A DNA stretch of 64,000 nt, from positions 12,148,001 through 12,212,000 of the forward strand of contig NC_135566.1 in NCBI RefSeq assembly GCF_964340395.1, in the 5' to 3' direction. Origin of the DNA: Glandiceps talaboti (Eukaryota; Hemichordata; Enteropneusta; Spengelidae). Each line of letters starts with the position of its first letter. The first letter of the stretch is position 1. A program made the position numbers and the translations under genes. A model generated the notes under the pieces. It was not told the origin of the DNA, did not search any database, and saw only the letters and a list, made by a program, of their open reading frames with translations. Shown here piece after piece: positions 1,750 to 59,300 of this stretch.

Positions 1750-2510
1750 CAACTGAAAACAGTCAACCTAACACAGAACGTAACCTGGCTTGACTAAAAT
1801 TGTACTAATATTGCAACATTTCACTATCTGGCTCTACAATTGCAACATTTTATCTTCTGGCTCAACAAATTGCAACACTGTATCATCTGGCTCTACATAA
1901 ATGTTACCAATATTGCTACATTTTATTGTCTGGCTCTAAAAAAGATGTTACCAATACTGCTACATTTTATAATCTGGCTCTATACAAATCTTGCCAATAT
2001 TTCTACATTTCACCGTTTGGTTTTACTAATGTTACCAATCCTGTTACACTTTATCATCTAGCTCAACATGTTATCTTTGCAGCATAGCTTCATTCTTTGT
2101 GTATGCTAACTTTATCTTAGCAGATTGCTACACTGTATCAAAGTGACTTGTTTTGATAAGGGCATTGTTTCTTGTAATATTGTAAGGATACACTGTTAAA
2201 CTGTAAATGATTTGACGACAGCCTCTTCAGACAATGATTAATCCAGCAAAGAAAATGTAGCAAATATTGTCTAGCCAGATGATAAAATGTAGCAATTTTG
2301 GTAATATGTTTGTAGAGCAAGACAATAAAATGTAGCAATTTTGGTAATATGTTTGTAGATCCTGATGATAAAATGTAGCACGATTGGTAAGATTTGTGTA
2401 GAATCAGACAATAAAATATTGATTACTTTGTAGAGCCAGACGATAAAATGTTACAATATTGGTAATGAGCCTGGCAATGTTCTGTTTCAGGTTAACTGGT
2501 TTCAATTGTA
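1750..2510. mobile_element. Foldback-like element, copy A (tandem-repeat inverted arms)
   Basis: The left arm (about 1752-2060) carries five to eight imperfect 30-50 bp units built on TGCTACATTTTATCATCTGG. The right arm (about 2265-2510) carries the same units in inverse orientation, CCAGATGATAAAATGTAGCA. Beyond the units the outer 40 bp also match inversely: TTACAACTGAAAACAGTCAACC at the left end and the complement of GGTTAACTGGTTTCAATTGTAA at the right end. Inverted arms made of short tandem units are the hallmark of Foldback-type elements. No transposase reading frame is present, so it is non-autonomous. A relative is at 48465-49015. Target duplications are not clear. Confidence 0.75.
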
Positions 2511-17500: not shown

Positions 17501-20500
17501 AAAGGAAGTCTATGTTAGATGTTTTGATTGTGATGATATTTTAGTTCAAAATAAACCCCATCGTTAAAAAGTGAATATAAACTCACTTGGAAATTGAAAG
17601 TGCTTATTGTGTAGTAAGGAGAATATGTTTGGCTTTATTTGTCATTTTTTTATAAGTTGTAGAATGGGGGGGGGGGGGGGGGGGGTGTAGAAATCATACT
17701 GAAAGAGTGATTCCTAGTAAATAGATATTATTAAAATACAATGAGTAATATCTATCCTGTATGTTTTATCATATTGAAATCCATCCCAGAATCATTGTCA
17801 CGAAAGAGTTTTGTTCAAATTCTTACTTCATACACTTGTGTGAGTTTCCATTGTGTTTTTATCAATAGATAGTGGGATTTGAAAGGTGAACTAGAAATGT
17901 CAATTACTGAAGTGTTTTTGAAGTTATACAATTTTCCTTTCATGTGCAGTGAGTTAGGTATAAAACAGTTGCATAATGTGAAGACTTCTGAAAGATGCAC
18001 TCTGATAGGTTTTGATATCTGTGGCCTGTATTATAATGATAATTTATTTCGAGTACCAGCTCATATAAAATTTAAAAAAAAAAAAAAAAATCATCACAAA
18101 ACCACATAAAAACACTAAAAGACTCAAATACAGAAACAAAGTTAAAAACAATCCATCAACAATCTTTTCCAAAAGTTAATGTATCATCAATAATTGCGAA
18201 AATTCTAAAAGGAAAGTGTATTGTATAGTATATATGCTTTCCAGTCAGTTGGACTCTTCAAGTACTTCACATTAGCCCAAACATTAAATAAGAAAATGCG
18301 ATTTAGACAATTTTTAAGACCCACTATTTTCCAACTGACAGATTCCAGAAAGATACCAGTTTGACATTGCATGTATTTCATTCCCTGTTTTTCACCATAC
18401 TTCAGTCCTGATGGAAGATGGGATCCTGAAAGATGGCATATGAGTCAGTCGGGAAAAAGATCAAGAGGACCATCACCAATTCAGTTTATAGACAGAAGAC
18501 CTAGTGATTTAGAAAGGGATATTTTTCGCAACAGACGACCTTCAGGTAAGGGTACAGAAGTAATCTGAACGATTTAGATATTATTCCCCAATATTTTTCT
18601 TCGTTCAGCCAAGCAAAATATGAGTGACCTAAGGGGTCTTTGTCACCAGAAGTCGCTAGACAAGTAGTGACAACCCTTAGGTCATGAGTATTTTCTGGCT
18701 GAATGAAGGAAAATATTGGAGAATAACATAATTATATCAGCGCTAGTAATATCAAGGAAAAATAGGGGAAAGTGAATGGAAATTTTGAACAGTTTGGTTC
18801 ATATTTCGATCACAGCAGAACCAGTGACGTAGACACATATCGTGACATAGACCTGCATTGTTGTGACATAGAACGACCAGAGTATATATTCCATATTTTT
18901 GGCTTGTACATGGTATAATAATTTTTAGCCCCCAATGGGGGTACCACTCAGAGGGGGATATTACTTCAGGTGCGATCCATTTGTGTGTTCGTCCATGTAT
19001 GCATCCACCTGTCTGTGTGCATGCACTCTCATACATTTGTATCTCTGGCATGCACCAGCCGATCTCAGATCTCAGCCAAACACCCACAAGCACATACATT
19101 GTGGTACTGAGTATATATTTAGTAGTTTTAGATGCACCAGTATATCTATTTAGATTGAAAACCTCAAAACTTACGTAAAAGGGGTGTAATCAATACCACA
19201 GCATCAACAAGTATGCAAAAAAGATTGCACAAAGTTTATACCCAGAAATCACTTGGTACTCATTTCACTTTGATTCACACATTCAGATGCTAAAGAGAGA
19301 CTTAAGGAAGAAAGAGATGGAATTGTACTCAGCCCACAACGTCGCAGCTTTGGCCATGGATGTCAGGGCTCTATACAGAGCACATACCAACGTCGATCAG
19401 GGAGTCCGCTTGAACAGAAAGATGGTGGCGGAAACCATGGCAACAGTGGCAGCCAGTCACAGAGACGTATTGGGAGCGGGAGGCTAACCAATCGTACAAG
19501 GTCTTTGGATTATGATGACCGGGCTGATAGGAATAGCGGCAGACCGGGACGTGATCGATATGATCGGGATTATGAACATGAGAAAGATGGCAGATTTGAA
19601 AAAGATGGCAGATTTGAAAAAGATGGAAGATTTGAAAAAGACGGAAGATTTGAAAAAGATGGAAGATTTGAAAAAGATGGTAGATATGACAGATATGGGT
19701 CCAAAGATTCCAAACGATATGGTAAGTACAATAGTGATAAAGAATCTTAGTTATCATACAGTCAGTTCAATTTTATACTGAACCATTGACCTTCAATCTT
19801 TATGACAAATCATCCTTTTGAGAGTAACCACTTTGTATCTCCAAAGTAAAGTTGACCTGTAGATGGTGGTATACTCAGTAGATTATATGTGTTACATATA
19901 TACTTTCCAGCGGCATGGGTAACGTGGTAGAACACTTCCAACAAAGTAGCTATGAAAATTAGTTTAAAGGTATAATGTAGTTTTCCAGAGATTTTAGGAT
20001 TTTACCCTCTGAAGTTCATAGACTCCGGAGAGGTTAACTGCAAGGAGTGGTGACCAAGTAACTTCAAGTGGTCTGATTTCAATGATTTCTTTGTGGAGTG
20101 AACCGGGACCTACTTTGCATTGATAATGTAAATGAAAAGTGAGGGGTCATGATGAAAGTTCTTCAGATCTATAGAAACATAAAAATCTCCTGTTCCGTTC
20201 AACGTAGTTGATGAATGTTTCATATTGTGACAGATGGAAATTTTCTAACTCGAATGTTGATGTCGTGAGACATTATAGGTAATGGATACATGATTTCATA
20301 TGTTAACAGGTCACCATGGACGCAAAGAGCCTGAACCAGAATGGTATTCAGCCGGTCCATCCAGTCAGTCTGAGACTATTGAATTACGGGGATTTAATAG
20401 GAGTGATGAACTACGCAAAGAAATACAAGAACGTAGACACATACCAGAAGGTAAGAAACTGTTAGTAGTGGTATGTCACAAGATTTAGATTGTATTTCCA

Positions 20501-34739: not shown

Positions 34740-36175
34740 GTACACACCATTGTCATAGTACATGACGTTGTCATATTGTCATTGTATGTGACATTGCCAT
34801 AGTACACGATATTGTCATAGTACCCGACATTGTATGATAGTACAAATCATTGTCATAGTACACGACTTTGTCATAGTACAAGACATTGTCATAGTACAAG
34901 ATATTGTCATAGTACAAATCATTGTCATAGTACACAACATTATCATAGTACACAACATTGTCATAGTACAAGATATTGTCATAGTACACAACATTATCAT
35001 AGTACACAGCATTGTCATAGTACACAACATTGTCATAGTACAAGATATTGTCATAGTACACAACATTATCATAGTACACAGCATTGTCATAGTACACAAC
35101 ATTATCATAGTACACAACATTATCATAGTACACAGCATTATCATAGTACACAACATTGTCATAGTACACAACATTGTCATAGTACACAACATTATCATAG
35201 TACACAGCATTGTCATAGTACACAACATTATCATAGTACACAACATTGTCATAGTACACAACATTGTCATAGTACACAACATTATCATAGTACACAACAT
35301 TGTCATAGTACACAACATTGTCATAGTACACAACATTGTCATAGTACACAACATTATCATAGTACACAACATTATCATAGTACACAACATTGTCATAGTA
35401 CACAACATTGTCATAGTACACAACATTGTCATAGTACACAACATTATCATAGTACACAACATTGTCATAGTACACAACATTATCATAGTACAAGATATTG
35501 TCATAGTACACAACATTATCATAGTACAAGATATTGTCATAGTACACAACATTATCATAGTACACAGCATTGTCATAGTACACAACATTGTCATAGTACA
35601 AGATATTGTCATAGTACACAACATTATCATAGTACACAGCATTGTCATAGTACACAACATTATCATAGTACACAACATTATCATAGTACACAACATTGTC
35701 ATAGTACACAACGTTGTCATAGTACACAACATTATCATAGTACACAGCATTGTCATAGTACACAACATTATCATAGTACACAGCATTGTCATAGTACACA
35801 ACATTGTCATAGTACACAGCATTGTCATAGTACACAACATTATCATAGTACACAACATTGTCATAGTACACAACATTGTCATAGTACACAACATTATCAT
35901 AGTACACAACATTGTCATAGTACACAACATTGTCATAGTACACAACATTGTCATAGTACACAACATTATCATAGTACACAACATTATCATAGTACACAAC
36001 ATTGTCATAGTACACAACATTGTCATAGTACACAACATTGTCATAGTACACAACATTATCATAGTACACAACATTATCATAGTACACAACATTATCATAG
36101 TACAAGATATTGTCATAGTACACAACATTGTCATAGTACACAACGTTGTCATAGTACATGAGAGACACTGTCATA
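34740..36175. repeat. 18-bp minisatellite, about 1.4 kb
   Basis: Roughly 75 tandem copies of TCATAGTACACAACATTG. Variants recur: ATTATC for ATTGTC, CACAGC for CACAAC, CAAGAT for CACAAC. Variant order forms a higher-order pattern (for example AAGATATTG followed by ACAACATTATC recurs). Because 18 is divisible by 3 and the unit lacks stops in several frames, both strands show long open frames of 443-473 codons. These are an arithmetic by-product, not genes. Confidence 0.97.
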
Positions 36176-40400: not shown

Positions 40401-41241
40401 TTGAAATCTTGTTAACTATCACAATGAAAATGTCTGCAATCTTGTAAACTATCAAAAAGGCACTGTCCTTGAACTTGTAATGGTGTGGTATTGGAGTCCT
40501 CTCTATGAACAGGAACTATGCATCGTGGTAAATCACACCTCTTTTACGCCATCATCCAAGACACACCATTATATTGTTATTTCTCAGTGTCGCGGAAGAA
40601 ACAACAGCTCTGGATTGTGAGAATGGAAATCGGTAAAAATTGCATAATCATGGAAGGGAACATAGATTTGATCTTTTGCCATCCTAAAGGAAAGCTCCTA
40701 GCTTCCCCATAGCTTTCATGCTCACCCTCCCTGTAATATTGGCTAATGGCAATGACTATTGAACTGAAACGATTATTCTGGAATAAGGACATAATTTACA
40801 TGAATGTATTTAACTAAGTAATCCTTACTGGCCAATTATATTTATGTATTTATATTGTGATTATATTATTTCATATTAGTTTGTCTATTCATAGATGTAA
40901 AAACTGCATTTTTATACTGTTTTTTAATCAAAAGAAAAACAGTTGCTATTTAAGTTTTTAACATAACATTCAGAAGTTTTGTGATGAAGTGTTGACAAAC
41001 ATAGAGGGATGCATGTATCTCTGGCAATCATCTTAAGTCCATAAATAGTTTGTCAGAAATATTTCATCTTTTTAAAAGCATTTCCATTTTTATAACGAGA
41101 CAACATTTATGGCAATCTCTCATATTATGACAAGTATTACATGTAAAAACAAATGGTGTTTATTCTTACTTCATATGACTGTGAGGGCGCTAGTTAGGAG
41201 AAAAGAAGATACGAACAAACAAACTACTTCCGTATTTCCGT
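37416..41241. other. Intergenic, no gene recognised
   Basis: Between EIF4ENIF1 and DRG1. A short imperfect repeat of CCAGGAATTTCAAA is at 38770-38880. An ATG-started frame of 105 codons at 39481-39798 has no recognisable domain and is not supported. The last 80 bp probably contain the DRG1 promoter. Confidence 0.45.
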
Positions 41242-41250
41242 CACCTGTGT
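41170..41250 (+). promoter_or_regulatory. DRG1: Likely DRG1 core promoter
   Basis: Taking out the MITE at 41251-41826 places this sequence directly before the DRG1 leader. It contains an inverted ETS-type site ACTTCCG at 41226-41232 and a GAGGGCGC box near 41183. Transcription start is inferred. Confidence 0.4.
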
Positions 41251-41826
41251 ACGAGTATAAAGTTGGCGTCAGATTCAGATTCAGATTCAGCTAGCGTCAT
41301 ATTGAGCGTCAGATTCAGCGTCAGATAGCCTCAGATCCGAAGACACCCGACGGACTCAATCAAAACTGAAATAATACCGTTGAGACTACAGGGAAAGATT
41401 CCACTTCACAGCCTTTTGATGGAAGATGGAATGTCTCTGCTTGCACAATTTTTAAATTTTAAATTCAAATTTTAAAAAATGACAACATATTACATACGTA
41501 AACTTAACTTTTACCAGACCATGTACATTATTGGCAAAACGTATCAACCAACGAACATACAGTGGCTGAACTTGGGGCTATCAATGTCTCGGTTGCAAGT
41601 ATTTCAACTCTATTTCACATATTTTTCCCAAATAAAAATTGTGCAAGCAGAGACATTCCAACTTCCATCAAAAGGCTGTGAAGCGGAATCTTTCCCTGTA
41701 GTCTCAACAGTATTATTTCAGGTTTGATTGAGTCCGTCGGGTGTCTTCGGATCTGACGCTGAATCTGACGCTCAATATGACGCTAGCAGAATCTGAATCT
41801 GAATCTGACACCAACTTTATACTCGT
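41251..41826. mobile_element. MULE-type MITE with ~200-bp inverted repeats in the DRG1 leader
   Basis: The left arm (41251 to about 41454) and right arm (about 41634-41826) are inverse copies with only scattered differences, starting ACGAGTATAAAGTTGG, then repeats of TCAGAT, then CCGAAGACACCCGACGGACT, then GGGAAAGATTCC. The perfect 9-bp direct repeat CACCTGTGT flanks it (41242-41250 and 41827-41835). The arms can fold into a hairpin of about 190-200 bp. It ends 43 bp before the DRG1 ATG (41870). High arm identity points to a recent insertion. No reading frame. Confidence 0.92.
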
Positions 41827-41869
41827 CACCTGTGTAATCCCCGCGAAAGTTGCAGATTCCTGCCTAAAA

Positions 41870-44800
41870 ATGGGTATTTTAGAGAGGATAGCAGAAATCG
41901 AGGCTGAAGTAAGTAGTAGGTTAATGAATCCCGGGTTAAGATGTAAGCGTTGTCTTTTTGTAATGTTGTAATCGAGAACCATACGTTGTCAGATTGACAA
42001 CACACGTGTGGTGTGGTACAATGTATCGAAAAACACATTCACAATAATACATACTGTACCATACATTCTCATCTGTGTTGGTATCAACGACATAATATGA
42101 TAATTTCAATCAACACATTTTAGGAATATTGGAACGAACTGAATACTTAACTTGTCGATAAATTATGATGTTTTCCTCCGCCCCTTTCCTAAAAAAAAAT
42201 ATGTGAAATATTTCTGTTCCGGGAGATCATATAGCGCCCGCTATGGTTTTCATATTCATAGAAGTTTCTTGAACACTTTGTTAATTATATTTAATATGGT
42301 GGTTGTGTAGTTTTTCCTTGTTTTATATCGTATTCTTTTATATTTGGTGTATATAATACATACGTTGATTTCATGTTTTTTCAAAATAAAGTTTTCAGTT
42401 TTCAACACTCCAAGTGAGTAAACTATTAGATTCTCGTTCAAGAATAAATGCCAGACTTAAATCTGGTACCAATTTCTTACTTTTCCACTAAATTTTTGAT
42501 TTGTGATCCTACTTTTGCAGATGGCCCGTACACAGAGAAATAAAGCAACAATGGGTCACTTGGGTCTCTTAAAAGCAAGGTTAGCTAAACTCAGACGAGA
42601 GTTAATCACTCCAAAGGGAGGTGGTGGTGGTACTGGTGAAGGTAAGGTATCTCATTTACATACTCATGAATATTCAAATAGATTTACAAAGGTTATGTGA
42701 GGTCAAGTATGTAACACAGTGAGGCTGTTGTGTACTGTATTGGTATTGTTTGCCAATTCAATCATTCTTGCAGCACAAAGCAAAATGAACAAAATGATCT
42801 TGACCTTCCCAAATGCAAAAATAGTTTTGGACAATTCAGCACAAAATTGGAATAAAGTGTTATTATTTTTCAAAAATGTCGGTTTGAAGAAGTCACTAGT
42901 TTAGAATTCAAATTATATGAAGTGTAGAGTTTAACGAGTGACATGTTTTGCTTCAGTAGTTTTTTAGTTTAATTACTTGACTATCGCTATGACGACAAGG
43001 ATTCAAAGATTTAGTTTACATGCCTCAAGTCATACTTATAACATGTATTGGTGTGTTATTTGACAGGTTTTGATGTGGCAAAAACAGGAGATGCCAGGAT
43101 AGGCTTTGTTGGTAAGTTTACTTACATATAACGTCTCACAGCAAGTAATAAAGATGTATGTAACTGTAACTAAGAACTTATTGTAGTAACGGTCATGATG
43201 GGTTGAAAATTACTTGAAACAATGTCAGTGAACTGTAGATAAACAACCTTGCAGTGAACTTGACATGTAAAGAATCAATGTATGATTATACGTTGGTGAA
43301 AAACTACCCCCAAAAACATGTGAATTGACATGATTTATTAAAACTGATGTTACTCAGACCTAATTACTTGGCAAAGCTCGAGTGGAACCCAAGATCTAGG
43401 AAGAGTGACACTTGATATCAGTGTTCATTTAATATAATTTATTTACAAAGCCGTTTAAGTGTTATATATCAGCTGCGTGGAGCAGAGGTAAAAATGTTCT
43501 CTCTCTACAAAGATGAGGACTAAAACTGACTAACATAAAAGACATGCCTCTTTAGAATTAATTTATAAAATTTTATGTAACAAGGAAATCACTCCCTATT
43601 TTATTTATCAAACTAATCTAAGTTTGGTTGATGTTTTGACTTAAAATCTGTGTTGATGTTTGGTTATCAGGATTTCCATCTGTTGGTAAATCTACACTTC
43701 TAAGTAATCTGGCTGGTGTCTATTCAGAGGTAGCTGCTTATGAGTTTACAACGTTAACCACTGTACCTGGTGTTATCAGGTATAAAGGGGCAAAAATTCA
43801 AGTAAGTTTGGATTTATGAAAAGATCAAACTCAATGATTTTATGTGTTTCTACCAAATAGAGAAATAGTTCTGTAAAGACGGTAATGATGTATTTGAAGA
43901 TTGTCTCAAAACTAAACTCCTATGGTGTGCTCTAGCCATTCCGCACTATTGAAGAGAACATTGCTCTGAAAATCGGCGCTATAGAAAGTTAATTGATTGA
44001 CTGACCAACCGATCGACTGTGTTTTGAAGTGAAATACACATAACACAAGAATTAATTTTCATATACATTGTTAACATTTTTCAAGAAATTTGGACTGCAA
44101 ACCTTGGGCCTGGAGAGAACCCTAAAAATAAGATGAAAACTGGGTAGAAGTCATGCTTATTAAATAACGGTAGCAATGTGTATATATCATATAATCAATT
44201 TCCAGAAAGTAGAAAGAACCAGACACCTTTGCAATGTATACTTTAATTTAATGACATTCTGTCCACATACTTAAAATAACTATTTTATATTAATAATTAT
44301 GTTTGATACCAATTTTCATATTTTTTTGAATTTCAGTTATTAGATCTTCCAGGTATTATAGAGGGCGCTAAAGATGGTAAAGGAAGAGGAAGACAAGTTA
44401 TTGCAGGTGATACAATAGATATAGTCATAGGGGGTCTTGTGTACTACTAACGCATTCATGACATAGGGGGTCTTGAGTATTGCTTAACCATACACATACT
44501 AGTTTGCCATTGCTTCACATAGCTGCTTCTTATAATGATAGCAGGATAGGTGAAGTTTATATTGCCCAGTAACTTGTGATTTTTGACAGATAGTATTATT
44601 TTATGAAACTGATTATTACCAAAATATTTACTTTGCATGTACTGTAATAAAGTATTACCGGGATACAGCACTGATTTATGGTCAGTTATACATGCTATTT
44701 GTGTACTATGAAAGCAGTCACTCTCATTGTTAATTAGAGTCATTATTCTGTATTTCTTTCAGTTGCCAGAACTTGTAGTTTAATTCTGATTGTACTAGAT

Positions 44801-47382
44801 GTACTCAAACCTTTGCAACATAAAAGAATTATAGAAAAAGAACTTGAAGGTTTTGGTATAAGGTGAGAATATATATCTCAGGTTTATTTACTACTGGTAC
44901 TAAGGAGATTATGAGATCAGTTGGTTTGTACATGATGATGTAGTACAGTAATGTAGAGTCTATGGCACTATTTCAGCCTGAGAATCGTACAAAGATATTT
45001 GTTTGTGTTTAAATGACCATTCCATTCAATAACAAGTGTCACCTTATGTTCTACTAGAGGATAACTTGCCACTTTTTGATATGATTTTGAAATGATAAAT
45101 ATGACCACTGGTAATCCAGCCTTCCGTTTACTAAGATAGATGTAAACTAAATCTATTTGTTCTTCAATGTAGTAGATTACACAAGTGGGTGATAGCGGTT
45201 CCTCTGCTGTTGTGCGACTGTAATCACCCTGTGATTAAGCTATTGGTAATATTGGAAGTCTCTAAACAGTACACTCCAAGTTCATGGAACTCTGTCAATA
45301 AAACTCTGTGATGCCTCCCTACTGAGACTATAATTAAACCAACATCCATTCAATAGCTTATCACTGTTTGTATCAACATGTTGTGAGAACAGTTTTGGTT
45401 TGTGTCTGTCTTAGTATTAAAACCGAAGGCTCAATTACCAGGGTAATATAAATATAACTTAATCTGGAATAGTGGTTCGCAAAGTGTCTTTAGTGGCCAA
45501 GATGACTGAACATTGATCAGATCAAGATATGCAGAGACACACTTCCTTTACAAGGCTTGTTAGTGACTGAATTTGTAGTATACATTATATGCCTGTCTGG
45601 TAGGATTATCACAACATGATAGAGACTTCTACATACATTGTTACCCCAATGGTAGTGTCATCACAACCCTACAAAACTGTGTCCTAAGTATTAGAGAAGA
45701 GCCCCAAATTTCAAAATTAAGTTCAATCACAGAAACTTTACTATAGGGACAGCAAATCTGAAAACAACATTGTTACTTAGAAAATAATCTTCTTGTTGTC
45801 TTTGATTGTTACAATCATTGTCAGTTATACTATCGTTTCCCTTGTGACAGAATAAATGTTAAAGTGACATATTTTCATTCTTTTTTCTCCAGGTTAAATA
45901 AAACTCCACCTAATATATCATTTAGAAAGAAAGAAAAAGGTGGTGTTAACTTGACAGCAACGTGTGCACAATCACAACTGGATCTAGACTTAGTTAAGAC
46001 TGTGTTGTCGGAATACAAAATTCACAATGCTGATATTACTCTACGATCCGATGCCACAACTGATGATTTGATTGATGTGATAGAAGGCAACAGAGCATTT
46101 ATCCCATGTATCTATGTACTCAATAAAATTGATCAGATCTCCGTCCCTGTAAGTATTGACTTTATACTTGGTGTAGAGAATCGATATGTTACCAGTTCCA
46201 AGATGCATCGCACATCGATGCAAATCCTACTTGAGAAAACGATGTTAACAAAACTCGATAAATTGCAAAAAAAAAACATATGTAGAATATTTATTGTTGT
46301 ACATACAGTTACAAACTTTTTACACATTTTTTAGCTTTTTGCAATGTATTGTGTTACAAACACAGACTTGGTCAATGTTGTTTCACTTTCATTTTTCAAG
46401 TAGGAAGCCATGATAAAATTGTTTTATAAATTAAAAATCCAAACTAAATACCCAATCCTCATCCATATGGCCACTTTAACAATGAATTCTAGAAATGTAA
46501 TTTCAAAGTGTTTTTGAAGGGAAACAGAGAATGAACATGCTATAACGTCATTTTAATTACAAGGACAATTTAAGTTGAAAGTTGAAAAAACAAGAAGTTG
46601 TTAATCTTTGTTTTATTTCCAAGGAATTGGATATAATCTACAAGATTCCACATACTGTACCTATATCAGCACATCATAAATGGAACTTTGATGATTTACT
46701 AGAGAAGATATGGGAATACCTTGACCTTGTTAGAATGTAAGTTATTCACAACAATAACACTTATAGAACCTCCCGTCTAGTCTAAGTTTCATAGCATTTG
46801 AAATCAAACATACAATGAAACCAAGAATGCACAAATTGGTTGCTGTCCCCATAAGAATAATAATACTTAACTAGAATCCCTCATTCAATTTCCTATTGTC
46901 GGTCAAATTACATGTACTACTATGGAAAACAAGGTATCAGCAGACTAAGATCGACACAAAGTAAAACCATTTTAGTTATTGCTTGTGACAGATTACACAA
47001 GTGAGTGATAACATTGCCTTGGTTATGTGGATATAATCACCCTGTAATAAAGATAGTGTGAACACTGAATACACACCCACATTCACACTCAAAGCAGGTC
47101 TTATTGATTGGTTGTCAGGGCAACATGGTATTCATATTGTTACATTTGTCACTGTACAGTTACACCAAACCTAAAGGTCAGTTACCAGACTACGAAGCTC
47201 CAGTCGTTTTGAAAAGTGGTCAATCCTGTGTGGAAGATTTCTGTAACAACCTTCACAAAGCCATCATGAAGGAATTCAAGTATGCCCTGGTATGGGGATC
47301 CTCAGTGAAACACAATCCACAGAAAGTTGGTAAAGAGCACTTGCTTGATGATGAAGATGTCATCCAAATTGTCAAAAAGTAA
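41870..47382 (+). CDS. DRG1: Developmentally regulated GTP-binding protein 1 (DRG1), nine exons
   Basis: OBG-class GTPase that works with its partner DFRP1/ZC3H15 on translating ribosomes (family knowledge). Exons: 41870-41908, 42521-42641, 43067-43111, 43671-43801, 44337-44406, 44763-44862, 45893-46148, 46624-46736, 47160-47382; 1098 nt, 365 residues (human 367). Near-identical to the animal family: basic helix with [21 protein letters not shown]1 GFPSVGKS at 69-76; switch region [11 protein letters not shown]3 DLPG at 115-118; G4 NKID at 246-249; G5 SAHH at 269-272; C-terminal TGS domain (about 292-365) ending VIQIVKK. All nucleotide-binding motifs are intact. ATG context is AAAAATGG. A hairpin MITE sits just upstream. 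Next gene, HECTD4, is tail-to-tail. Confidence 0.97.
43925..44012 (+). repeat. Possible SINE 3' end in DRG1 intron 4
   Basis: TCGGCGCTATAGAAAGTTAA followed by TTGATTGACTGA resembles the GCGCTATAAA-plus-tetranucleotide tail of many invertebrate SINEs. No A or B box was found upstream. Weak call. Confidence 0.35.
45108..45442. mobile_element. MITE family with CTGGTAAT ends, copy 1
   Basis: The left end CTGGTAATCCAGCCTTCCG, then TTTACTAAGATAGA, is inversely matched at the right end (GTCTTAG, then CCGAAGGCTCAATTACCAG). The internal block has AGATTACACAAGTGGGTGAT and CTACTGAGACTATAATTAAA. The whole element is found again on the other strand at 58146-58480, and a fragment of the internal block is at 46985-47060. 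In DRG1 intron 6. Confidence 0.75.
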
Positions 47383-48464: not shown

Positions 48465-49015
48465 ATGACAGAAATTATGAAACCTGTAACAAAATGTTGC
48501 CTGGCTGGACAAAAATCTTACCAACATTGCTACATTTTATCATCTGGTACAACACATTGCTACATTTTATCATCTGGGGCAACACATTGCTACATTTTAT
48601 CATCTGGTACAACACATTGCTACATTTTATCATCTGGTACAACACATTGCTACATTTTATCATCTGGTACAACACATTGCTACATTTTATCGTCTGGGGC
48701 AACACATTGCTGCACTTTCTCTGTGCCAATGGTGAGCTACCATTATCAGTTACATGTATAATGTAAGGCCAACATGTGAAGGTATTAAACCTAATGTTGT
48801 GGTATTCATTCTGATATTTTTGAGACAGTCAATTGACTACAATGTAACAATTGTACTTCAATGTTTGCCATGCCAGACAATATGTGGAAATGTTAATCAG
48901 CCAGATTCAACTCCTCTGAAATCTTTGTCTGGCCAGATGATAAAATGTAGCAATTCTGGTAAGATTTTTGTCAAGGCAGATGACGTTTTGTTTCAGGGTT
49001 CGTGGTTTTCACTCT
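48465..49015. mobile_element. Foldback-like element, copy B
   Basis: The left arm has six to seven near-perfect 30-bp tandem units of ACATTGCTACATTTTATCAT plus CTGGTACAAC (48525-48715), preceded by AACAAAATGTTGCCTGGC. The right arm (about 48920-49010) has one inverse unit, CCAGATGATAAAATGTAGCA, and the inverse outer end. The two arms differ greatly in unit number, and the left units are almost identical, which suggests recent expansion after insertion. Related to copy A at 1750-2510. Confidence 0.75.
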
Positions 49016-56307: not shown

Positions 56308-59300
56308 TCATCCACTTAGTGGATCTTCACGACAGTTGATGGCATACAGAAGTCGATCAGTCATTATCTGTTGACTGGAGTACTGTGGTAACTTGATCAT
56401 AAACATACACGTTTCAACCCGGATAAACCTGGAGTCTGGGGAACCTGTAGAGATACCAAAGATGAAAACCATGTGTATAACTTGATTTGTAAGATGATGG
56501 TATAACTAATATACATTTGTACTTATATAGTTAAAGGGGAACACACTCAAGGAAATAGAGACTTTTTCATAAAATATGGGTTCTGGAGAGTGATTTCACA
56601 ATATTACATCACATAAATAATTTACGATTTCAGAGAAATCTTTGCTATGGGCTACTGCATCATGGGAGTCAGCAGAAACAATGTATTCAATGGTTGAACA
56701 TTGAATATTCATGACAGCTGCTTCACACTGAAGTGTATAACATTTTGTACTCATGAATATTCAGTGTTCAACCATTGACTAATGTATTTTTGCTATCTCC
56801 CATGATGCAATAGCCCATAGAAAAGATACCCTCTAAATGCACAAGACCAATTTGATGTTTCTCTGAAATCACAAGTAATTGTAGGTGATGTAAAATCATG
56901 AAATGACTCTCTGGAAGGCATCATATCGCTGAACACATGTACAACATGTACATATTTGGAAGTAATGATGGTGTGAAAGATATAAAAACAAAAGATTCTT
57001 ACCACTTGGACCGTCAGGTGGTGCTATTTTCATAGGGTAGGGTGGTACATGGGCTGTTTCTGCATTGCCATCTTTACAGGGACATGTACATGGTATTCTC
57101 TCTTGATTACAGGCAAACTTGACAAATTTACATAATTCTTCCTGTGAGAAACTCTCTAAGGCATTCCAGAAATATTCAATGTGCGTGTCTGTCTCCATCA
57201 GACCAACTTGATACATGGTGTGAGACTACAGTGAAAAGTGAAATGAAAAGATGTGGATTTTAGCACTAGCTGTAACCGAGGTCTTATTTTTTCAGTCACA
57301 CAGCCAACAATATATTCACTGAAAATTGTCAAAATAAACAAGACAAAGTACATGTTAATCAGTGGTCGATGTTTTCCATAAGTAGTACAGAAACAGGTTG
57401 AAATCGTTATCACCAGCGAGGGCGCTGTTTTTGGTATGGACCCATTAATCAACTTGATTTGATATATTGTGTATACAGCATGTTTATCCACAGGTGATTC
57501 AATACCGTTCATGGTGTACGATATTACGAGTAAGTTATTGTACCCAAGAAAATATTTTTTTTAGAAACATTCCAGTTGCAGCTAGTGCAACTTTAAGAAG
57601 TATAGCACACACACTGTGAGACTCACCTTAAGGAAATCTAGGTCTACTGTTGGCTGTCCACACGTTCTGAGTTCCATATCTTGTGGTGTCATTAATGGTA
57701 ATAACTGCATGGGTATGACAGATGCCAGACCACAACGTACAGCCAATAACTGACCACTACATTCTAATTCCTGCATCCGTAGTCTAGTCACAGCCTCCAC
57801 ATACTCTAGCCTGTTTTCCCAGCTGAAAGAAAATGACAGAGCCGTTATTTTAGAGATTATTTTTGATATGAATATCAATGTGATATACCTAATAATATCA
57901 ATTTATTCATATCCAGTTGTATAGAATTTTTTGGAAAGCTTACCATTCTTTAAGAAAATTTGTACCAGGTCTGTAAAAGCATTTCGTTGGAGAATTGTAG
58001 AATAAACAAGTCTCAGTAGAAGCATGGGTATATTTGTGTCTGCTCAAGTTTGATTTATGCATGAATCACTAGGTGTTATCAGGAAAACAAGGTACACAAC
58101 TTGTTACCTCTGGACCAACCATGTAAGTAAGAACATAATATTATTACTCTGGTATAAATTGAGCCTTCAATTTACTAAGTTAGACACTATCTAAAACTAC
58201 TGTTGCAATGTGTTCATACAACAGTGATAAGCTACATGTATTGAATGGTCACTCATTTAATTATAGTCTCAGTAGGGCGGCTCTCTGAAAACTAGTTTCA
58301 TAAACTTGCTGTGTACTGTTTTGGGACCTCCAATGTTTACACTACCTTGATCACAGAGTGAAATTTTGCACAACAGAGGAACTGCTATCACCCACTTGTG
58401 TAATCTATACACAAGAGTTTTAGTGTGTGTCTACCTTAGTAAACCAATGCTGTATCAAAGCCTGACATACATTACAACATACTTATTGTCTTCTGCTGGT
58501 GATGTAATGTGCATAGACTATCGTTCATGTACACAGCGAATACCCCAATTTTGAAATTTGGCCTTGACGGTCCAAAGGTCATGGTTATTAAAAGACCAGT
58601 AGTGTGGTATATCAACTTACCTGACATAGATATTTCTACCACCACGTTTTAGTTCTACTTCAGTGCCAGTCATTGATGAGTATGTAAATCTATAAGGACC
58701 ACTTTCCGAACACATCTCAGTAAACTCACTCTCATCCTCCAGCTGAACCAAAATAAACAAGATTTCAATTTTAGAATCAGAAGCTACATGTACTGGGTAT
58801 ATTTTAAAATGGCATGACTTTCTCAAGATTTGAAGGTAATAGTTTATTTTCTAATTTGGTTAAGGAGAGTCGTTCGTCCACATTTTCTACGGTCTTCACA
58901 TTTGCATAATGTATATTACCTGTTCCAATTTCTTGATAAACTTGTAAGTTACAATATCAGCTTCTTTGAGATCTTCTTCACAATCAAGTGGTACATCCAC
59001 TACACATTTCCAGAAAGTTGACAGGAGATCCATAGAAATAGGAATGTCTGCTCTGATTGACACACCCAGTAACTATGGTAACAAGAAATGTACATGTTAG
59101 TGATGAATATCTTCTCTTAATGCCACTAGGAATATCTTACCCAAAGACGCATCACTCAATGAATTGACATCGGATTAACAAGTATATGAATAAAAGTATG
59201 TGCTCTTCAACTCAAGTCTAGTCGGGTGAGGTGAGGTGAGGTGAGGTCAGGTCACTCCCTCCCTCCCTCACTCACTCCCTCCCTCCCTCCCTCCTCCCTC

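Follow-up and report, generated by a model that had tools for sequence, protein, structure and literature searches.

A young MITE of likely Mutator/Foldback type 43 bases before the DRG1 start codon in Glandiceps talaboti

Introduction

A transposable element with inverted arms of about 200 bp lies directly before the start codon of DRG1 in the hemichordate Glandiceps talaboti. The insertion poses a checkable question: where does the DRG1 transcript now start? A first-pass annotation, made from the letters alone, had pointed to this locus. We followed it up in a window of 64,000 nucleotides (NC_135566.1, positions 12,148,001 to 12,212,000, forward strand), and compared the element with its relatives in the host genome and with loci carrying a possible transposase. 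Coordinates are those of the window.

The element and the DRG1 gene

The features of the locus are listed here in the order of their positions.

41226..41241, plus strand: ETS-like words ACTTCCGT (41226) and ATTTCCG (41234)
41242..41250: left target-site duplication CACCTGTGT, from sequence, word counts and copy comparison
41251..41454, plus strand: left arm, 204 bp, starting with ACGAGTATAAAGTTGG
41266..41326, plus strand: repetitive outer left arm, GATTCA/GCGTCA-type repeats (right-arm counterpart 41751-41809)
41455..41632: element interior between the arms, 178 bp
41633..41826, minus strand: right arm, 194 bp, with a 10-bp deletion
41777..41869, plus strand: right-arm ATG in the frame of DRG1, open for 31 codons (MTLAESESESDTNFILVTCVIPAKVADSCLK)
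41827..41835: right target-site duplication CACCTGTGT
41836..41869, plus strand: original sequence from the duplication to the DRG1 ATG (34 bases)
41870..41908, plus strand: DRG1 exon 1, 13 residues, ATG context AAAAATGG
42521..42641, plus strand: DRG1 exon 2, opening with an in-frame ATG (MARTQ...)
43067..43111, plus strand: DRG1 exon 3
43671..43801, plus strand: DRG1 exon 4
44337..44406, plus strand: DRG1 exon 5
44763..44862, plus strand: DRG1 exon 6
45893..46148, plus strand: DRG1 exon 7
46624..46736, plus strand: DRG1 exon 8
47160..47382, plus strand: DRG1 exon 9

The element had a length of 576 bp (41251-41826). The perfect 9-bp target duplication reported in the first-pass annotation was confirmed on both sides of it, and its 9-mer occurred exactly twice on the plus strand of the 64 kb and not at all on the minus strand. 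The gap of 43 nt between the element end at 41826 and the DRG1 ATG at 41870 was also read as annotated. The arms aligned in two blocks split by a 10-bp indel, an outer pair (41251-41326/41751-41826, 76 nt, 97% complementary) and an inner pair (41327-41454/41633-41760, 128 nt, 96% complementary). They had been called near-perfect, which holds if the indel is ignored (96-97%), but not if gaps are counted, when identity across the outer 200 bp was 92% (6 mismatches, 10 gaps). Both arms contained tandem units, of 12 bp (4.8 times) and 28 bp (1.9 times) in the left arm and of 12 bp (2.8 times) in the right.

The longest stop-to-stop frame fully within the element (41476-41727, 83 aa) had no Pfam match. 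In the 64-kb window, an Rfam scan at gathering score and a tRNA scan both gave zero matches. The promoter and terminator scan that was run covers bacterial sigma-70 sites and is uninformative for this locus.

DRG1 was assembled from nine exons into a product of 365 aa, with an intact frame and GT/AG at all internal boundaries, and the gene is thus as intact as previously described. The product matched yeast Rbg1 over residues 4-365 (E 3.8e-158). Its score was 529.6 bits against Rbg1 and 391.8 bits against Rbg2, the counterparts of DRG1 and DRG2, and this identified the gene as that of DRG1 (developmentally regulated GTP-binding protein 1), a conserved GTPase present here in full length, rather than DRG2.

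An ETS-type site had been placed on the far side of the element. Two ETS-like words were indeed found there, just before the left duplication, and are probably a remnant of the original DRG1 promoter. On both strands of the window, CGGAAGT occurred six times and CGGAAAT twice. The reconstructed pre-insertion site reads ...ACTTCCGTATTTCCGT CACCTGTGT AATCCCCGCGAAAGTTGCAGATTCCTGCCTAAAA ATG, in which the two words began 59 and 51 bases before the DRG1 ATG. Through the insertion, they now lie 585 bases farther from the ATG.

Upstream of DRG1, on the same strand, an EIF4E-T (EIF4ENIF1-like) frame was detected at 19274-19750 (PF10477, E 4e-10). Human EIF4ENIF1 and DRG1 are also neighbours, on chromosome 22, and their nearness in both genomes suggests an old conserved synteny. 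Between the two genes lay an 18-bp minisatellite of ~76 copies (ACATTGTCATAGTACACA, 34791-36158), open in several frames. A 30-bp unit was repeated 6.5 times downstream of DRG1 (48524-48718). Units of the CTACATTTTATC type, which look like this repeat, were also present in arrays close to the beginning of the window (1810-2069). Two PF00632 frames on the minus strand (56896-57902) belonged to a HECT-domain ubiquitin ligase.

Copies in the genome and age of the family

The host genome (590 Mb, 47 contigs) was searched with the window element, which gave 493 first-look candidates. Forty of the 493 were scored, spread over many contigs. Besides the window's own place, the 39 others were 86-96% identical to the window copy. 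The element is short and non-coding, with inverted arms and many dispersed copies, and the earlier identification as a MITE therefore stands. Thirty copies, including that of the window, were fetched for comparison.

An exact 9-bp duplication flanked 23 of the 30 copies, the window copy among them. Two copies had a duplication of 8 bp (L010, L013), and two had one of 9 bp if a mutated end base is assumed (L022, L024). At L015 a duplication was looked for and none was seen; the other exceptions in this tally were L018, which runs into Ns, and L028, which is truncated. Base counts over the 23 duplications and their flanks revealed no strong consensus. At L004, one family copy had inserted within another. 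The inner copy was flanked by the exact duplication CTATCAATG, and the joined flanks matched the family consensus across the site with two substitutions. As the pre-insertion site is readable here, the nested copy is direct evidence of a 9-bp duplication upon insertion. At L023 (1501-2308), a full copy stood in tandem with a 191-bp deletion form, and the 9-bp CTTTTCATG was present at all three junctions. A 16-base end pattern of the family matched 11 viral-contig stretches, and a 29-base arm pattern had zero matches in prokaryote genome contigs.

Substitution relative to the 587-bp consensus of the 30 copies had a median of 1.9% (range 0.9 to 6.0%). In sequence terms, this is a young, non-autonomous MITE family. 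The window copy differed from the consensus by 11 substitutions in 576 and by 11 gap columns, some of them common to other copies. The 10-bp arm deletion was found in 5 of the 30 copies, window copy counted, and so did not necessarily arise at this locus.

The insertion could be a segregating allele, heterozygous in the sequenced individual, with an empty allele that masks its effect. A young family and a perfect duplication are what such an allele would show, but the differences of the window copy from the consensus, some of them shared, mean that the insertion need not be very recent. We regard heterozygosity as possible but unlikely.

Likely affiliation with Mutator/Foldback elements

Target duplications of MULEs measure 8-11 bp, and their TIRs are commonly hundreds of bp long (excerpt of PMC6446971). 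The Mutator/Foldback family Tm1 of root-knot nematodes includes MITE-like members; its ends are composite, most of its duplications measure 9 bp, and it has a MULE-type transposase (excerpt of PMC3169594). The window family showed 9-bp duplications, TIRs of ~200 bp and composite inverted repeats. Its 9-bp duplications and long, internally repetitive ends make it likely to be a Mutator/Foldback-type (MULE) derivative.

With Tm1, as described in that excerpt, the family shares non-coding members, composite and internally repetitive TIRs, and duplications (8-10 bp in Tm1, mostly 9) without clear consensus. In contrast, Tm1 has its own end sequence, built of mostly 14-bp tandem units, and a member with a MULE transposase and the same ends is known. 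MULEs in general, the Rehavkus and Phantom groups included, have similar duplications (8-11 bp, often 9) and long TIRs and also occur in or near genes (excerpt of PMC6446971); they differ from the window copy, which has no transposase.

The MULE transposase domain PF10551 gave 31 matches in the genome, and 12 of these 31 loci were compared with the family consensus. They formed two sets with eight loci in common: ten at ±1.5 kb (L042-L051) and ten in stretches of 7-12 kb (L052+L054, L053, L055-L062). Among the 12 loci, no autonomous partner with the ends of the family was found, and only chance-like words of 11 to 31 bases matched.

At the MULE-domain locus L055, the ends were composite tandem repeats, and a scan that allowed 7-11 bp found GTCTACAAT as an exact 9-bp duplication on either side of the domain. 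This architecture thus exists in this genome together with a MULE transposase. Foldback-like ends of tandem GGACAA(A/C/T)(C/T)GCCCCC-type units were seen at L055 (1889-5175) and L053 (517-4645); the arm arrays of the window element are short and less regular than these. No exact duplication was found at the composite ends of L053. L052/L054 had 267-bp arms (97%), with a tentative 9-bp duplication that was AT-rich and near-palindromic and was therefore not relied on. Long ends could be used at three MULE loci, and of these only L055 had a clear 9-bp duplication. For L058 no duplication was found, and the ends of L061 were a simple AT repeat. In the stretches of L056, L057, L059, L060 and L062, inverted ends at a wide spacing were absent altogether, perhaps because these elements have decayed or extend beyond the sequence compared.

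Merlin elements have duplications of 8-9 bp. A superfamily of this kind, with duplications of ~9 bp, could have produced a family that only resembles Mutator/Foldback, and the lack of a transposase linked to its ends among the 12 of 31 MULE loci would agree with that. This origin is nevertheless improbable, given long composite ends combined with 9-bp duplications, which fit MULE/Foldback, and the same architecture at L055.

Leader folding and the start of DRG1 transcription

RNA of 41242-41869 was predicted to fold at -374.6 kcal/mol, whereas 20 shuffles averaged -138.5 (z -33.6). Predicted leaders that start upstream of or at the left edge of the element reached -378 to -387 kcal/mol and contained seven upstream ATGs. 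The predicted fold was -90 kcal/mol for a start at 41455 and -63 kcal/mol for one at 41633. Without any upstream ATG, it was -24 kcal/mol from 41778, and -14.1 and -13.1 kcal/mol from 41827 and 41836. Starts past ~41455 escape the long hairpin, and starts past 41777 escape all upstream ATGs. The leader hairpin of the first-pass annotation is therefore stable in prediction, but a problem only for starts upstream of ~41455.

A leader with the whole element would hardly be scannable, and the gene is conserved and intact; economy therefore favours a start past the long stem. Judged from the needs of translation, DRG1 transcription now most likely begins in or downstream of the right arm. Our preferred explanation as a whole, to which we give a probability of about 0.6, is a recent insertion of a MULE-derived MITE that acts mainly as a spacer, with the DRG1 start past the long hairpin. 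A young non-coding MITE, mobilised by a transposase made elsewhere, would have inserted between upstream promoter sequence and the DRG1 ATG. The start site would lie either in the 34 bases of original sequence that precede the ATG or where the right arm ends, and DRG1 would survive since the ribosome never meets the 200-bp stem. The element, 576 bp plus the second 9-bp duplication, would mainly space the upstream sites from the start site.

CpG observed/expected was 0.87-1.11 in 500-bp windows starting from 41001 to 42001, element included, against a median of 0.31 for the whole window. As it is raised on both sides of the element, it does not place the start site.

Alternatively, DRG1 might now be transcribed from a start site that the element itself provides, in either its loop or its right arm. 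Leaders from 41600-41760 lack the long hairpin (predicted -65.8 to -24.5 kcal/mol), and their sole upstream ATG is that at 41777, in frame with DRG1 and open. This ATG comes first for any start after 41584 and before 41777, in which case DRG1 with a 31-residue, mostly element-encoded N-terminal extension could result. In maize, the terminal repeat of MuDR contains a promoter, according to the title of a reference cited in PMC3440606. Against such a start, an in-frame open ATG 31 codons upstream has estimated odds of ~1 in 13 by simple codon odds, so that the ATG at 41777 is by itself no evidence. Moreover, starts between 41455 and 41584 meet other upstream ATGs before it, and the TATAAAG motif of the end sequence, as read, faces the element interior, away from DRG1. 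An element-supplied start thus appears doubtful, and it is very improbable that the right arm provides both start site and start codon for a second DRG1 with the 31-residue extension, the MITE end forming part of the first exon of this gene for a ribosome-associated GTPase.

Transcription from an upstream start would put the whole hairpin in the mature leader, and DRG1 translation would then be strongly reduced, or the RNA edited or diced. The predicted hairpin is stable enough for this. A-to-I editing in animals mainly hits double-stranded RNA of evolutionarily young repeats (excerpt of PMC9989829), and RescueMu in a 5' leader blocked expression of the gene on the plasmid (excerpt of PMC545602). 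However, DRG1 is a highly conserved gene with an intact frame, a null leader on both alleles would presumably be costly, and the seven upstream ATGs would be a further hindrance. A mature leader of this kind is quite improbable, and the suggestion that DRG1 translation is unusual here found no support beyond the sequence.

Removal of the element by splicing, also proposed in the annotation, was disfavoured, though weakly. With a simple matrix, no donor scored above 3 between 40901 and 41869. The matrices are approximate: one of the six known DRG1 donors (2.87) fell below the cut-off of 3 and one of the seven known acceptors below the cut-off of 2. In addition, an acceptor-like site at 41710 scored 4.57.

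An assembly artefact, with a repeat copy misplaced before DRG1, is possible in principle as for any repeat, but it had no support, and the perfect locus-specific 9-bp duplication and an identity of at most 96% to the 29 other fetched copies leave it a negligible chance.

Position of copies relative to genes

Maize Mu has a known preference for inserting at 5' ends, near transcription starts and in 5' leaders (excerpts of PMC7337890 and PMC545602). The DRG1 insertion resembles these in its place at the 5' end of a host gene; Mu differs in being a plant element and in its preference, which was not demonstrated for the window family by a paired CpG test over 27 of the 30 copies. CpG observed/expected was higher near the copies (0-250 bp) than far from them (1000-1500 bp) in 14 of these 27 (Wilcoxon p = 0.19), and the comparison of 0-500 bp with far gave p = 0.17. 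The three copies left out were L004 (nested), L018 (next to Ns) and L023 (beside another copy).

Of 643 flank frames with a length of at least 45 aa, 20 were picked by hand, representing 14 of the 30 copies, and run against Pfam. Host-gene domains above cut-off were found beside six copies (L009, L011, L014, L015, L021, L028), a tally that is descriptive only, as it has no random control loci. The L009 copy ended 136 bases short of an in-frame ATG in a frame with a sulfotransferase domain; an out-of-frame ATG came earlier, at 62 bases. In an EMP24-domain frame, the first ATG came 762 bases downstream of the L021 copy, and the L015 copy was flanked by two frames that encode a Rieske protein's transmembrane and Rieske domains. 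The L002 copy was located within a retroelement, and the flank of L029 gave one Ig match below cut-off.

If ~25,000 genes are assumed, chance alone should place a copy within ~50 bp of an ATG ~0.1 times in 40 copies and ~1 time in 493. With ~1 expected among the 493 candidates, the position before DRG1 is unsurprising and needs no targeting.

Significance

The element family is of a well-known kind, and its insertion before DRG1 is an ordinary kind of event. A MITE before DRG1 was not described in the literature searched, with searches that used neither the name DRG1 nor the end sequence. Once start-site data are at hand, this locus would cleanly test, in a natural setting, how a conserved gene copes with a hairpin of 200-bp arms inserted at its 5' end. 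The outcomes to be told apart are a start site that bypasses the hairpin, a start taken over by the element, and a loss that is tolerated on one allele.
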